Origin: Campylobacterales bacterium
GTDB lineage: Bacteria > Campylobacterota > Campylobacteria > Campylobacterales > Sulfurospirillaceae
DNA length: 64,000 bases
Assembly: GCA_024280575.1 (NCBI GenBank)
Contig: JAJRPV010000003.1
Coordinates: 1-64,000, forward strand
Direction of reading: 5' to 3'
Shown: positions 50,891-56,060 of the stretch, piece by piece
Position numbering within the stretch: position 1 is the stretch's first letter
How the letters are laid out: each line of letters starts with the position of its first letter
The notes under the pieces: generated by a model
Database searches by the model: none
What the model was told of the DNA's origin: nothing
What the model saw: the letters and a program-made list of their open reading frames with translations, nothing else
Program-made: the position numbers and the translations under genes

Positions 50891-53114
50891 AATTCAATTC
50901 TATTTCTTCCGTTCCGCTTGGCTTTATATAACTTTTTATCTGCTTTTAGCATCATACTTTCTGTACTATCATTTTCTATATAAGCTACAATACCAAAACT
51001 ACAAGTTAGTTTTGGTATTACTTTAAATTTAAATGTTTCTATTTTTATTCTTAATTTTTCCGCCAACTGTATGGCTTCATTTTGCGTTGTTTCCGGAAGT
51101 ATAATAAGAAATTCTTCTCCTCCCCACCTACCGAATATATCACTTTTTCTCAATGATTTTGCAACCAAACTGCTTAATTTTATCAACACTAAATCTCCCA
51201 CTTTATGACCATAGGTATCATTTACTTGCTTAAAGCGGTCGATATCAAAATAAATTATACTCAGTGGCCTCTTGTATCTCTTGGATATTTCTATTTGTTC
51301 ATCAAGTGCCAAGTCCATCTTGTATCTATTATTTATAGATGTCAGCATATCCATTGTTGCCAATCTTTCAAGTTCCAGTTCAAGCTTTTTCTTTTTTTTA
51401 TCTCTTTTTTCAAATGCAAAGCCCAGCCCAAAATAAGAAGCATAACAACCAGTGCAATGATTGCTAGATTTATTATCTCTTTAAGACTATATCCGTTTTG
51501 ATAAGCAACAGAAATCCATTTATTATTTATTATCATTTTTTCATCATCGCTGATGCTATCAATTGCATTGTTTATCGCCGGAATTAGTATTTGATAATCT
51601 TTTCTAAGCATAAATTTTACATCAAAATTAAATGGTGTTTTTCCTGATATCTTTAAATTTGAAAAGTTATATTTATTTATTTTGTATGCAATAACAGGTA
51701 AGATATCTAGTGCAGCAAAAGCTTGATTGTTACTCACCATATTAAGTGCTTCATTCGTATTTTTAGCTTCTATAATTTTAAGATAGGAAAAATATTTTTT
51801 TAGTAGCTTTTCTACAGTATAATTTTTGCCTACTGCTATTTTTTTATTTTTCAAATAATTCATATCCGATATAAAACCTACATTGTTTCTGGTTGCAATT
51901 ACTATAGGGAAACTCATATAAGGTTTTGAAAAAACTGCGTATTTTTCTCTTTCTGGTGTATTTGTTGTTGAGAGTGTTATATCTGCTTTTTTATTTTTTA
52001 TATTCCATAAAACATCACTCCAATTATTGTCAATTTCACATTTCGAATTTATATTTAGTCGTTTTTTAACATTATCCCAATAGTCTATCGCAATACCTAC
52101 TAATTTTCCATTTTTTAAAGTATTAAAAGGCTCCCATGCAGAAGTTGAGATACATCTTAAAACATGTGATTTGATAAACCTTTTTTCCATTTTTGTTAAT
52201 CTGCAAGGGTTATATATATAATTATGAATATCTACTTTAGAACCTGCCATGCCTAGCAATGTATAAATACTTTTGATGTTATCAATTTTATTATTCTCAA
52301 ATTTAAATTTCTTACTTATAAATTTTTTCATTTTATTTGCTTCATATTTTAATTTATCATATGTATAATCTTGGGTATTGTATTTTTTAAGTATTACCTT
52401 TATTGTCTCATCTACATGACCAGAAGCGTACTTCCAGCCTTCTTTAGAGGCTTCTATAAATTTTTTTACTTTTTCAGGGTCGTTTTCAACTTCACTTTGA
52501 GATGTAAATAAAATGTCTCCATAAAAATCAAATCCATAATCTCTTGGTTTAAAAATTTGATATTTGATATTTTTTTTATCCAAATAGTACATCTCATCCG
52601 TTTCATATATGCCATATATTCCTTTTTTAGTCAATAAATTTTTTATGCTGTACATGGTTGTATTTGTACTTAATTTATTGAGATTAATATATTGAGATTT
52701 TAACATTGCAACAATAGGTACACTTTTCAAGCTGTATTCGTCTATGGCTATATGTTTTTTTTCTATATCTTTTAGCGTCTTTACAGACTCATCCGTAGAT
52801 ACAAGAGATAATGGAGAATGGGCAAATATAGGCATCAGCAGTTCAATTTTTTTATTTTTTAATGCCCAATAAAAAAGACTACTGTCTAAAATTCCATAAT
52901 AATTTTTTTTCTTTAAAACCTCATCTATGACATCTATGTTTTTGTTATATTCAAATAAGTTTACATGCAGACCGGCTTTTTTATAAAAGTTTTTTTCTTT
53001 TGCCATATAAAATCCGGCAAATTGGAAAGAGTTTTTCCATTTTAATTGCAAGTTGATAGTATTTGTAGAAAATGACAAGATGGGCAACAATAAGAAAAGA
53101 ATTATTTTTTTCAT
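50887..53114 (-). pseudogene. Diguanylate cyclase with two periplasmic binding-protein domains, 1-base frameshift
   Basis: Makes cyclic di-GMP. Layout: signal peptide, an NMT1/THI5-like domain (about 20-250, KWKNSFQFAGFYMAKEKNFY), a second SBP_bac_3-like domain (about 295-520), one membrane helix (about 545-565), a short coiled coil, then GGDEF with GRWGGEEF and an upstream RKSD product-inhibition site. The frame breaks in A runs of the linker (plus-strand T5 51386-51390 and T8 51392-51399). The first part ends LKDWQQWIC and stops; the second resumes KLELELERLATMDMLT. One base restores 742 residues. Without it the cyclase domain is not made as a fusion. Confidence 0.82.
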
Positions 53115-53186
53115 TTTCTTGCCTTTTTTAGTCTTTATTTATTATAGTCTCACTTAATTTAAAGGTATATTAATTATATATATTTT

Positions 53187-54092
53187 CTACTCCACGGCCT
53201 TTTTAACTGCATTAATGTAACTTAACAAAGACAGTTCGCTGTCATTATAGGCCTTGTCAAATGCTGTTCCGTGATCTACTGATGTTCTTATTATGCTTTT
53301 ATTGAGAGTCACATTTATACTATCAAAAAAATGTAAAGCTTTTAGGGGAATCAAACCTTGATCATGATACATACAAACAAAATATTTAAAATTTTTTCTA
53401 TTTTGTTCACTAAATGCAGTATCTGGCACAAGAGGTCCTTTAAATATATCTTTTTTTAGTTTTTTATTTGCTTTTTTTATAGCTTTTTCAATCTCTATGT
53501 CTTCATTGCCGATAACTCCATCATCTCCTGCATGTGGATTTAGTGCGAGTACAGCGATATTGTCTGATTCAATATAGTCATAAATATTTATTAGAAATTT
53601 ATATATTTTTTTAGCCTCTACATGTGAGCTTATTTCTCGAATTGAAATATGATGAGTATAAAGAATAATGTACATATCTTCACACCCTAGCATCATCACA
53701 GTTTCACACCCTAGAAGATCTGCTAGCGCATCTGTGTGGCCTTTGTATTTTATGCCTGCAAGTGCCCAGGAAGCCTTATTTATAGGTAGAGTTACAATAC
53801 CACAGACTTGCTTACTTTTAGCTAGAGCAATTGCTGTGATAAACGAATCATAAGAGAATTCTCCTGCTTCTTTAGTGTTTACTCCTGGTTTTATCTCAAA
53901 TACTTCGCCACACTCTTTTGTCTTAAAATTTTTGGGTATGTCGATACTTAACATCGCACTTCCCCACTCAAGCATAGTTTTATTGATACAATAAACAGGT
54001 TTGCAAATTTTGGAAATCTTTTCATGCGCTCTTAATGCAATTTCAAGTCCTACACCATTTATATCACCGATGCTTATGGCTAACTTTTTCAT
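53187..54092 (-). CDS. pdxA: 4-hydroxythreonine-4-phosphate dehydrogenase
   Basis: Oxidises 4-phosphohydroxy-L-threonine in the DXP-dependent pyridoxal phosphate pathway; its product joins DXP on PdxJ. At 301 aa, with ISIGDINGVGLEIALRA at the N-terminus, metal histidines in YKGHTDALAD, ALNPHAGDDG and CMYHDQGLIPLK, and RTSVDHGTAFD near the C-terminus. The ribosome site GGGG lies 8 bases before the ATG and belongs to the repeat unit inserted upstream. The ATG overlaps the stop of the preceding mini-ORF. Confidence 0.96.
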   Translation of the reverse strand: MKKLAISIGDINGVGLEIALRAHEKISKICKPVYCINKTMLEWGSAMLSIDIPKNFKTKECGEVFEIKPGVNTKEAGEFSYDSFITAIALAKSKQVCGIVTLPINKASWALAGIKYKGHTDALADLLGCETVMMLGCEDMYIILYTHHISIREISSHVEAKKIYKFLINIYDYIESDNIAVLALNPHAGDDGVIGNEDIEIEKAIKKANKKLKKDIFKGPLVPDTAFSEQNRKNFKYFVCMYHDQGLIPLKALHFFDSINVTLNKSIIRTSVDHGTAFDKAYNDSELSLLSYINAVKKAVE

Positions 54093-54172
54093 TTTACTGT
54101 CCCCTTTGTCAGGAAGTAAATTCCTGTCAAATTCCTCGCGACTAAAGCTTTGGCTTTACCAAGAAATTTCAT
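54089..54172 (-). CDS. Mini-ORF A in the pdxJ-pdxA junction
   Basis: A 27-codon frame (MKFLGKAKALVARNL, ending GTVK) whose ATG overlaps the stop of mini-ORF B and whose TGA overlaps the pdxA ATG. A strong GGGGGG site lies 8 bases before its start. It shares KAK/KAR, VARNL and GTVK with ORF B. Its DNA contains an imperfect inverted repeat, CAGGAA/TTCCTG (54110-54126). It may be translated simply as a linker; no function is known and it may be repeat DNA. Confidence 0.45.
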   Translation of the reverse strand: MKFLGKAKALVARNLTGIYFLTKGTVK

Positions 54173-54285
54173 TTTACTGTCCCCCCTGCCCATAAATGAC
54201 ATTTTGAAGATTTAACCCATAAAAAAATTAAATTTATGGGCAGATTCCTCGCCACTGTTACACGAGCTTTGCTCTGTAATTTCAT
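54169..54285 (-). CDS. Mini-ORF B in the pdxJ-pdxA junction
   Basis: A 38-codon frame (MKLQSKARVTVARNLPINL, ending WAGGTVK). Its ATG overlaps the pdxJ stop as ATGA, and its TGA overlaps the start of mini-ORF A. No ribosome site precedes it, so it would depend on coupling to pdxJ. The middle is encoded by a large inverted repeat, so the peptide is probably a by-product of the repeat. Confidence 0.4.
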   Translation of the reverse strand: MKLQSKARVTVARNLPINLIFLWVKSSKCHLWAGGTVK

Positions 54286-55061
54286 TTTATTATTTCCAGC
54301 ATCTCTTTTACCGCATTTTCAAAACCGCTGAAAACTGCTCTTGCTATTATACACTGACCTATATTTAACTCAACTATTCCGTCTATCTTGCATATCTCTT
54401 TTACATTCTGATAATTAAGTCCATGACCTGCTGCTACTTTTAATCCTAATTTATTTGCATACGCTGTATTATCCACTATCTCCTTGGTTGCATCTTTAAG
54501 CAACTCTTTTAACTTTTTTCTAGGAAGTTCCAAATTTTTTACAGTATGTTTAGTATATGGTAAATTTGAATAAAGCATAGCATATATATTTGAGTAAAAA
54601 CCGGTATGTAGCTCAATCCAATCAGCCTTTAACTCTTTTGATAGCATTATTATTTGTGGGTCAGGATCTATAAACAAAGAGACATTTATGCCGTGTGAAT
54701 GCAAATCTTCAGTCACATTTTTAAGTTTTTCAAAATTTTTAACAACATTTAAACCACCTTCGGTTGTTACTTCTTCTCTTTTTTCCGGTACTATTGTTGC
54801 ACGATGCGGATTTAGTCTGATAACTCTTCTTATAATTTGTTCATCAACAGCACATTCAAGATTTACAGGAAGTTGTGAATTTTCGATAATTCTTCTGGCA
54901 TCATCATCATTTATATGCCTTCTATCTTCCCTTAGATGTATAGTTATCTGATCAGCTCCGGCTCTTCTTGCTAACGGTACGGCATCTAGCGGATCTGGAT
55001 CATTTATCTTTCTTGCTTCTCTTAAAACCGCAATATGGTCAATATTTACTCCTAGTAACAT
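54282..55061 (-). CDS. pdxJ: Pyridoxine 5'-phosphate synthase
   Basis: Condenses the PdxA product with deoxyxylulose phosphate to pyridoxine phosphate. It is a TIM barrel of 259 aa. Motifs: GVNIDHIAVLREARK, DQITIHLREDRRHI, VNLECAV, SLFIDPD, ELHTGFYSN, AAGHGLNY and LNIGQCIIARAVF. It is the first gene of the pdxJ-pdxA unit, divergent from ppx/gppA across 99 bases. Its stop overlaps the first mini-ORF rather than pdxA. Confidence 0.97.
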   Translation of the reverse strand: MLLGVNIDHIAVLREARKINDPDPLDAVPLARRAGADQITIHLREDRRHINDDDARRIIENSQLPVNLECAVDEQIIRRVIRLNPHRATIVPEKREEVTTEGGLNVVKNFEKLKNVTEDLHSHGINVSLFIDPDPQIIMLSKELKADWIELHTGFYSNIYAMLYSNLPYTKHTVKNLELPRKKLKELLKDATKEIVDNTAYANKLGLKVAAGHGLNYQNVKEICKIDGIVELNIGQCIIARAVFSGFENAVKEMLEIIK

Positions 55062-55127
55062 TTTGCTACTCCTTTAAATCAATAATTTTAATTTTATCAG
55101 TATAACGCTTAATTTCCATTAATTTGA

Positions 55128-55133
55128 TATAAT
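55128..55133 (+). promoter_or_regulatory. Candidate -10 box of the ppx/sirtuin genes
   Basis: TATAAT in TTTGATATAATAATT, 28 bases before the ATG at 55161, which is preceded by AGGAAGGA. No clear -35 is visible. Confidence 0.4.
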
Positions 55134-55160
55134 AATTACCTCAAACAGGAAGGAAAAAAG

Positions 55161-56060
55161 ATGATAGGATGTGATTTAGGCTCAAATACTATAAGAATAG
55201 TACAAATTGATTGTAAAACAAAAGATAGAGTCAAAGAGTTTGAAAGAATTGTCAAAACGGGTCATAATTTGCATAAAACCAAAGTTATAAGCGAAATATC
55301 TATGCAAAATATCTTAAATGCCTTAAAAGATGCATCAAATATTTTTGATTTTAAAAATCACAATACAAAATGCGTAACAACAGAAGCTCTAAGAGTAGCA
55401 AAAAATTCAAAAGAGGTATTAGAAAAAATCTACAACAATTTTGGACTTGATTTTAATATAATAAACGGCGAACAAGAAGCAAAATATACAATTCTGGGAG
55501 TCAAAAATGCCTTACTTAGAAAAAATATAATCAACAGTAGTTTTGCTATATTTGATTTAGGTGGCGGCTCTACGGAACTTAGTTATATAGAGGGTGAAAA
55601 TATTTCCACAAAAAGCTTTCCTTTCGGAATCCTCAATATCTATGAAAAATACAACAATAATCTCAAGAAAGGGATAAAAAAAGAGCTAAAACCCCTGTCA
55701 TTCTTCGCAAATAAAAATAAAAAGCCGAAGTTTTTAGTAGCAACTGCCGGAACTCCCACAACGGTTTGTGCCTTTTTACAAGGCATGGATTATAATTCAT
55801 ATGACTATAAAAAGATAAATGGGAAAACCCTACATGTAGAGGATTTTTTAAAGGCATACAAGATGATAATATCACTTGATAAAAAAGAGCAGGAAAGATT
55901 TTGCGGCACAAACAGAAGCGGGCTCATAAAAACGGGAATTTTAATAGTAGTAAATTTAATGCAAACCATAGGTTTTAAAAAATGTATAGTTATAGATGAC
56001 GGATTAAGAGAAGGAGTTGCCTTGTCTTTATGCAAAAACAAAGGAGAAAAATATGGCTAA
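55161..56060 (+). CDS. Ppx/GppA family phosphatase
   Basis: Exopolyphosphatase or pppGpp phosphohydrolase-type ASKHA protein of 299 aa. The phosphate loops are GCDLGSNTIRIVQID at the N-terminus and FDLGGGSTELSY near 135-146, with the catalytic glutamate in NGEQEAKY. ATAGTPTT and DDGLREGVAL complete the fold. Only the two core domains are present, without the C-terminal HD domain of longer Ppx. Polyphosphate or pppGpp substrate cannot be told apart here. It overlaps the sirtuin gene by 8 bases. Confidence 0.87.
   Translation: MIGCDLGSNTIRIVQIDCKTKDRVKEFERIVKTGHNLHKTKVISEISMQNILNALKDASNIFDFKNHNTKCVTTEALRVAKNSKEVLEKIYNNFGLDFNIINGEQEAKYTILGVKNALLRKNIINSSFAIFDLGGGSTELSYIEGENISTKSFPFGILNIYEKYNNNLKKGIKKELKPLSFFANKNKKPKFLVATAGTPTTVCAFLQGMDYNSYDYKKINGKTLHVEDFLKAYKMIISLDKKEQERFCGTNRSGLIKTGILIVVNLMQTIGFKKCIVIDDGLREGVALSLCKNKGEKYG

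Follow-up and report, generated by a model that had tools for sequence, protein, structure and literature searches.

What are the two short units that separate pdxJ from pdxA in this Campylobacterales genome, and how did they come to stand at a gene start? We addressed this question from a window of 64,000 nucleotides (contig JAJRPV010000003.1, positions 1 to 64,000), to which the coordinates of this locus refer. On the minus strand, pdxJ (54282-55061; NCBIfam PdxJ) lies upstream and pdxA (53187-54092; NCBIfam PdxA) downstream of two mini-ORFs of 117 and 84 bases, both within 54089-54285. The upstream, first unit (54169-54285) is exactly a 38-aa mini-ORF and the downstream, second unit (54089-54172) exactly a 27-aa mini-ORF; both run from ATGA to ATGA, starting with ATGAAATT and ending with GGGGACAGTAAAATGA. 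The TGA stop of pdxJ lies inside the first ATGA, and pdxJ, the 38-aa ORF, the 27-aa ORF and pdxA form a chain of ATGA overlaps, confirming the original prediction on this point. The start of the second mini-ORF is taken here, as in that prediction, at the ATG at 54172; the ORF listing opens it at an earlier ATG, at 54202.

In the first unit, hairpin 1 (54261-54276, CA GAGC AAA GCTC G TG, with a one-base 3' bulge) is followed by the linker CAGTGGCGAGGAAT (54244-54257; a linker match with three mismatches spans 54242-54257) and, where hairpin 2 would be, by a 58-bp palindrome, CTGCCCAT...ATGGGCAG (54186-54243, assigned to no strand). In the second unit, hairpin 1 (CTTGGTAAAGCCAAAG, 54148-54163) and the linker TTTAGTCGCGAGGAAT (54131-54146; exact 16-mer match at 54129-54144) precede a 27-base hairpin 2, TTTGACAGGAATTTACTTCCTGACAAA (54105-54131). 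The hairpins and linkers lie on the minus strand, as do the tails; hairpin 1 was assigned from sequence and family covariation, hairpin 2 from sequence and family pairing, and the linkers from sequence. The two units were predicted to hold different inverted repeats, and the 58-bp palindrome and the 27-base hairpin are indeed different. A Shine-Dalgarno sequence (SD) had been placed in each unit next to the following start codon; fittingly, both units end in the SD-like tail GGGGACAGTAAA, at 54173-54184 before the ATG of the second mini-ORF and at 54093-54104 immediately 5' of the pdxA start codon. Covariance model R1 scored 59.9 bits for the first unit (54167-54290; 29.2 bits over 54227-54290 in a second search) and 93.1 bits for the second (54087-54177, the same in both searches).

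Within the window, GGGGACAGTAAA with up to two mismatches gave 8 matches against a shuffle mean of 3.07. Genome-wide, exact GGGGACANNNNNATG occurred 43 times and the reversed pattern once; by eye, 42 of the 43 occurrences lie inside or at the edge of a covariance-model match. The exception (this genome, G000, C66:23071-23085) is a lone exact GGGGACANNNNNATG with no model match nearby, possibly the tail remnant of a lost unit.

The element had been called palindromic. The units do bear hairpins, but the first unit's 58-bp palindrome is similar to a palindrome family of its own, members of which are also found outside units in relatives. The pattern CTGCCCAN{30,60}TGGGCAG has its sole exact match in this genome at 54186-54243. 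Palindromes of the form CTGCCCAT-(about 40-50)-ATGGGCAG replace hairpin 2 in units of loci L165, L168, L176, L202 and L227 as in the window, and palindromes of this family also lie in or near the RNase P RNA of other genomes (L313, L317 with two copies, and L318) and in the RNase P loop of genome G008.

A dispersed family with occupied and empty orthologous sites

A covariance model was built from 21 of 27 collected units, near-duplicates and partial first units being dropped. A search of the 2.06-Mb draft genome, as the original prediction had proposed, returned at least 117 model matches at E<=1 (150 candidates scored). They group by strand into 74 arrays of units of about 76-117 bp, a dispersal that rules out a purely local duplication. 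A linker search independent of the tail (16-base linker, up to two mismatches) found 63 places in the genome, 62 of them inside model matches and the remaining one a partial unit at a contig end. Across 25 genomes of the same genus and family, model copies ranged from 0 to at least 103 (up to 105 candidates scored per genome). In an even, class-wide draw of 298 genomes, at least 25 had a match at E<=1e-5, from four families (14 candidates scored each); the related units in three further Campylobacterota families again lie at gene starts. A pattern scan of named genomes yielded at least 80 stretches, and the titles among the matches listed were Sulfurospirillum, Campylobacteraceae or Campylobacterota only; Sulfurospirillum arcachonense DSM 9755 is one of the records matched. 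Rfam gave no unit match at E<=1 for window positions 53000-55500 and 11 relative loci.

Contigs C10, C21, C33, C45, C64, C72 and C78 end inside or beside tandem arrays, so that the arrays seem to break the assembly. Three array pairs located at contig ends are almost the same in sequence (score 0.97-1.0), and another pair scores 0.93; these four are probably single arrays split by assembly.

A unit consists of a variable head, hairpin 1, linker, hairpin 2 and tail, followed by ATG. The linker is conserved around GCTTYAGT...GAGGAATT, and tails such as GGGGACAGTTAA or GGAGAAATTAA precede the ATG. In hairpin 1, a single bulged base on the 3' side separates four variable pairs from two further pairs. 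All six pairs (at most one of them G-U) form in 112 of 148 distinct hairpin 1 sequences, with 20 different 5' stems, against a mean of 1.3 in shuffles and 14.8 with the halves swapped. Given the choice between no bulge and a one-base bulge, all 112 took the one-base bulge, and in 111 of them the two further pairs are CT/AG or CA/TG. Hairpin 2 (115 distinct sequences) comprises about 11 pairs, the sixth of which is weak and standard in 60 of the 115. Its non-standard pairs are G-U in 67 cases and A-C in 26 (52 vs at most 10 outside the sixth pair), and this excess points to folding of the sense strand. Moreover, linker and tail co-vary: in 174 parsed units, which are not independent of one another, all 151 GAGGAA linkers go with a GGxx tail and all 23 xTGAA linkers with a GATG, GATA or GAAA tail. 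Parsing covered hairpin 1 in 104 of 163 arrays and 194 of 233 units, and linker, tail and hairpin 2 in 174 of the 233 units. The structural claim is carried by covariation, not by energy. Single units fold modestly better than shuffles (z of -2.1, -2.1 and -1.4), and in the minimum-energy fold of the second window unit the head pairs with the linker and hairpin 2 is not formed.

Two variants of this anatomy were seen. At C33:41227-41356 (L077) and C27:9170-9300 (L095) of G000, two units from different sub-families have hairpin 2 loops with similar inserts about 40 nt long, around AAGGAAGCATCGCTGACGCGACCGCATTTGC, perhaps another tiny repeat. Half-units in L206, L180, L211, L210, L183, L077 and L176 have hairpin 1 and CTTTAGT, then A-rich sequence such as AAAAAAATAAAAATAAG, without the linker and hairpin 2; they look as if a deletion had run from the linker AGT to the tail CAGT.

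We then compared orthologous sites. Units are present in 3 of the 20 readable pdxA loci (21 retrieved): in this genome (two units), in G006 (three, one of an SD-less class) and in G003 (one, after TAG). Among the 17 unit-free loci, 10 have a plain pdxJ-pdxA ATGA overlap and 2 have a different gene upstream. Since relatives thus have clean overlaps, the units look inserted. Orthologs could be read for 31 array sites. Of these sites, 19 had a filled ortholog, 18 an empty one and 6 both, a count in which C50_7272 is scored as empty though it may hold part of an SD-less unit, and in which C33_50733 is a weak 29-bit match. The unit before argF spans three genera: besides G000 and MAG record L153, seven further genomes of this family have it, and two MAG records (L186, L202) lack it; argF is named by NCBIfam in G000 only and elsewhere from the protein start.

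Of the RNase P RNA genes of the family, 29 were readable and 10 of these also have unit-like inserts (36 matches, 30 loci retrieved, one of them unreadable), seven flagged by script and three (G284, G319, G229) judged by eye; the others have a short loop. We take the helix carrying the inserts to be P12. The inserts end in GACAGTTTAATGG or 1-3 bases off, and that of G319 is decayed. The loci concerned are L252-L255, L303, L305, L307, L308, L311, L312, L315, L316, L319 and L321, and some short loops resemble remnants.

Position of the units at gene starts

Four of the 74 arrays in this genome are cut at a contig end. In 68 of the 70 resolved arrays, an ORF of at least 60 codons starts in sense no more than 82 nt downstream; sense starts of such ORFs only were scored, and these counts stand without a random-placement control. 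The start codon lies directly at the unit tail in 51 of the 70, and in 17 the first start is elsewhere within the 82 nt, once inside the tail at -11. The remaining 2 arrays, both weak (about 36 bits), have no start within the stretch examined. The covariance model favors start-codon copies, because tail and ATGA are part of it; the linker search is free of this bias.

Abutment depends on the tail: 51 of 52 arrays with an SD-like tail abut a start codon and none of the 16 with a GATG, GAAA or TATG tail does. All of these 16 have, by eye, SD-like sequence before the later start. There are two such sub-families without SD, both placed upstream of genes with their own SD. The proposal that the element replaces the ribosome site of the downstream gene is thus consistent with the SD-tailed units and does not extend to the SD-less ones.

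In stretches from named genomes, which are biased because they were retrieved with an SD-type pattern, 71 of 80 resolved arrays abut a start, and at 9 more the locus ends within the array. The class search supplied 59 loci of other genomes, 19 returned directly and 40 picked by hand from its match list. In these, 41 units abut a start codon, 14 have a sense start 8-37 nt downstream and 4 are inside RNase P RNA. Of these loci, 32 are outside the family of the window; 22 units abut a start and 10 have one downstream. Nine unit-bearing genes are named by NCBIfam, namely pdxA, signal peptidase I, nfo, pyrH, ribosomal L7/L12, EF-Tu, dnaK, argF and C-terminal processing peptidase, and they are unrelated. 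Apart from these and RNase P RNA, we presume gene names from protein starts.

The ATGA junction had been proposed as the insertion site. This was not upheld: in 103 parsed first units the head stands after ATAA or ATAG in 49 and after ATGA in 35, and RNase P RNA also has inserts, so that insertion solely at ATGA junctions is ruled out. General insertion at the stop of the upstream gene was also rejected, as a stop ends within 14 nt of hairpin 1 in just 21 of 77 arrays with an upstream ORF. SD-like sequence with ATGA precedes 25 of the 103 first units, which we read as old gene starts; at C40:9708, AAAGGAAAAAACATGAGTA stands before the unit and ATGAGTAG after it.

An upstream ATG, and with it a mini-ORF, is missing from 62 of 141 distinct SD-class units. 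In the remaining 79, which do have one, 49 frames run through to the TGA within the following ATGA, and a further 10 end 4 nt short of the following ATG; from ATG to ATG the distance modulo 3 is 2 in 51, 1 in 21 and 0 in 7. Because units differ in the frame in which they read the linker, giving ALVARNF in some and SFSREEF in others with the tail in the same frame, the peptides show no conservation. The units are therefore neither confined to one place nor kept at the same place in all relatives with a conserved peptide. Genome-wide dispersal, clean overlaps in relatives and the varying peptide frame leave the original prediction without any of the observations that would have spoken against it.

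Origin and spread of the units

The original prediction knew of no described family with this design, and none was found in the open-access literature, which was the scope of the search. Rickettsia palindromic elements are small palindromic repeats tolerated in genes as in-frame inserts; they lie within reading frames, whereas the units precede the start codon. RPE-4 and RPE-6 are listed among CGTC repeats (PMC3733652). The units share with the REP/REPIN-RAYT system that they are short, form hairpins and occur in many copies between genes. REP/REPIN sequences have dozens to hundreds of copies, with bulged hairpins in some REP types (PMC6006769), and REPs lie predominantly downstream of coding regions (PMC3733652); unlike them, the units precede start codons with an SD. 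The GT[AG]G of REP/RAYT at the 5' hairpin foot was absent, the feet of hairpin 1 being CT/AG or CA/TG in 111 of 112. Hairpin 2 comes after GAGGAA, xTGAA or similar, and GTAG occurs in the linker of SD-less class b, never at a hairpin foot. No units flanked a RAYT gene, as in a REPtron, in the 31 of 55 Y1_Tnp loci examined, and by eye the 117 matches include no inverted (head-to-head) dimers, that is, no opposite-strand matches up to 1 kb apart.

TIRYT elements (TIRtrons) have the terminal motif GGGGWSAS (PMC3733652), and epsilon-, beta- and delta-proteobacteria are the groups in which a TIRYT-related subclass of transposases prevails (PMC6006769). Tails with GGGGACAG fit this motif; tails with GGGGACAA, found in many units, and SD-less tails do not. 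The Y1 genes here that have terminal repeats differ in bearing their own GGGGTCAGG or GGGGACAGGCTAC, not units, and no units stood as inverted repeats around a TIRYT gene in the Y1 loci examined. The subterminal hairpins of IS200/IS605-derived MITEs are present, two per unit, the first covarying with its one-base bulge. TAACTGA direct repeats of Beggiatoaceae are mostly forward and immediately before starts of unrelated genes, but are heptamers with little SD character, most such genes having no SD (PMC4679880); the units usually hold an SD and two hairpins and lack TAACTGA heptamer repeats. Pneumococcal BOX elements are modular with a variable module number, are transcribed and can form ORFs, with terminal inverted repeats and target duplications reported; placement at start codons with an SD does not appear in the available part of the BOX description (PMC3049150).

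Y1 transposases occur in 28 of 41 genomes searched, with Y1_Tnp matches at 55 loci. In the 31 loci examined, up to 1.5 kb on each side, there was one clear unit match, directly before another gene, and one match of 19.8 bits; the unit nearest an IS200-like gene stands immediately 5' of a different gene. No mobilizing enzyme was thus found beside units by the Y1_Tnp search of these 31 of 55 loci, in genomes that are partly drafts, and over 25 genomes the number of Y1 genes did not track that of units (Spearman 0.11, p 0.62). A role of Y1 genes as direct carriers, in this genome or its relatives, is thus not supported: those examined have other terminal repeats or none, lie away from units and do not follow them in number. 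In IS608, guide and cleavage site pair; such a pairing of linker and tail was considered, but by eye the two are not complementary. Y1 genes of relatives (L134, L136, L137, L139, L140, L146, L149) are framed by their own GGGGTCAGG...CCTGACCCC or GGGGACAGGCTAC, which fit the TIRYT motif. An inverted repeat CACTGCGCAGT...ACTGTGCAGTG lies beside a Y1 gene in L031 (1-260, C82); its bases ACTGTGCAGTGGTCTC also occur in L028 (around 160-190), at the upstream edge of the C45 array. In L032 (858-1389), two small overlapping ORFs precede a Y1 gene, presumably resembling a MazE/MazF-type antitoxin-toxin pair.

The best alignment score between units of different arrays was 0.961 with split arrays excluded, which gives no sign of very recent copying, and no identical copies were found at distant loci beyond the assembly-split arrays. 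In contrast to these diverged copies, 7 of 44 pairs within arrays score at least 0.95. Sub-families are mixed within one array at the pdxJ-pdxA junction of G006 and at C26:90849. The predicted mobility is favored by presence and absence at orthologous sites, by units in ATGA overlaps and in RNase P RNA and by such mixed arrays; neither a mobilizing enzyme in the Y1 loci examined nor fresh identical copies were found.

Taken together, we consider it probable that the units belong to a non-autonomous, REP/MITE-like family of small interspersed repeats in Campylobacterota that supplies an SD of its own. To judge from presence and absence at orthologous sites, the units appear to move, and they may do so as single-stranded DNA via an HUH-type enzyme with an ATG-like target. 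A unit would come to lie between the earlier start context of a gene and its start codon, and the downstream gene would now be started from the element, as the tail offers an SD at the right spacing, which ribosomes presumably use. By way of the mini-ORF, ribosomes that enter at the old start would be released either at the new start or beside it. Bringing its own SD, a unit could sit at start codons harmlessly; once in place it would be hard to lose, because the SD of the gene lies in it, and such a lock-in would hold units at gene starts. Tandem arrays would grow via local duplication. Several observations stand against this explanation. No mobilizing enzyme was found in the Y1 loci examined, Y1 gene number does not follow unit number, different arrays give no sign of very recent copying, and 62 of 141 distinct SD-class units lack a mini-ORF. 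An ATG-only target predicts copies at intergenic non-start ATGs on both strands, and there are almost none (2 of 70 arrays). Moreover, the SD-less sub-families have no SD lock-in, yet are also found in sense only.

More tentatively, and with somewhat less than even confidence, we suggest that the insertion site of the family is the translation start itself. The element would enter the exposed coding strand before the ATG, in sense, swapping in its own ribosome-binding site; because it replaces that of the host, insertion into operons, even at overlapping stop and start codons, would be neutral. If this is true, genes gradually hand their start signals to a selfish repeat, which lies directly at starts in 51 arrays here.

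The main rival, which we regard as unlikely, is that the units are a spread cis-regulatory RNA, a translational leader kept for regulating the gene, for instance through a GGA-binding protein touching the linker GAGGAA and the SD. The sense leader position in 68 of 70 arrays, the excess of G-U over A-C in hairpin 2 (67 vs 26), as for a folded sense strand, the joint change of linker and tail types (151/151 and 23/23) and the argF unit shared by G000, one MAG record and seven other genomes from three genera all favor it. However, the nine NCBIfam-named genes are unrelated, sites vary between species, and copy number runs from 0 to at least 103 within one family; tandem arrays, SD-less forms, copies in RNase P RNA and the lack of a unit match in Rfam also speak against a regulator. 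Less likely again, and in our view improbable, is an ancient leader repeat that multiplied without transposition, through tandem duplication, leader gene conversion and rare ectopic recombination at the shared tail/SD-ATG. Some array neighbors are recent duplicates (7 of 44 pairs at 0.95 or above), copies in different arrays are diverged, C47:3277 and C15:48636 look joined at a native SD, and by eye stems are wholly different at some orthologous sites. Inserts in tight ATGA overlaps and in RNase P RNA, however, would need a new start with very little homology. Finally, real small genes for conserved leader peptides are highly improbable: each unit of the window is an open ATGA-to-ATGA frame, and 49 of the 79 frames that begin at an upstream ATG finish exactly at the next ATGA, but the linker frame varies (ALVARNF vs SFSREEF) while that of the tail stays the same, 62 further distinct units have no upstream ATG, and units are missing in 17 of 20 readable pdxA loci.

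Most descriptions of small bacterial repeats place them between genes or behind them, in positions that cause little harm. As a mobile repeat that brings its own SD, the unit appears instead to be harmless by carrying the very signal that it displaces, a distinct lifestyle in gene-dense genomes, and this would explain how tight stop/start overlaps are opened without loss of the downstream gene. Start-site annotation and assembly are affected in these genomes, and the filled and empty sites offer a natural series for studying translational coupling.
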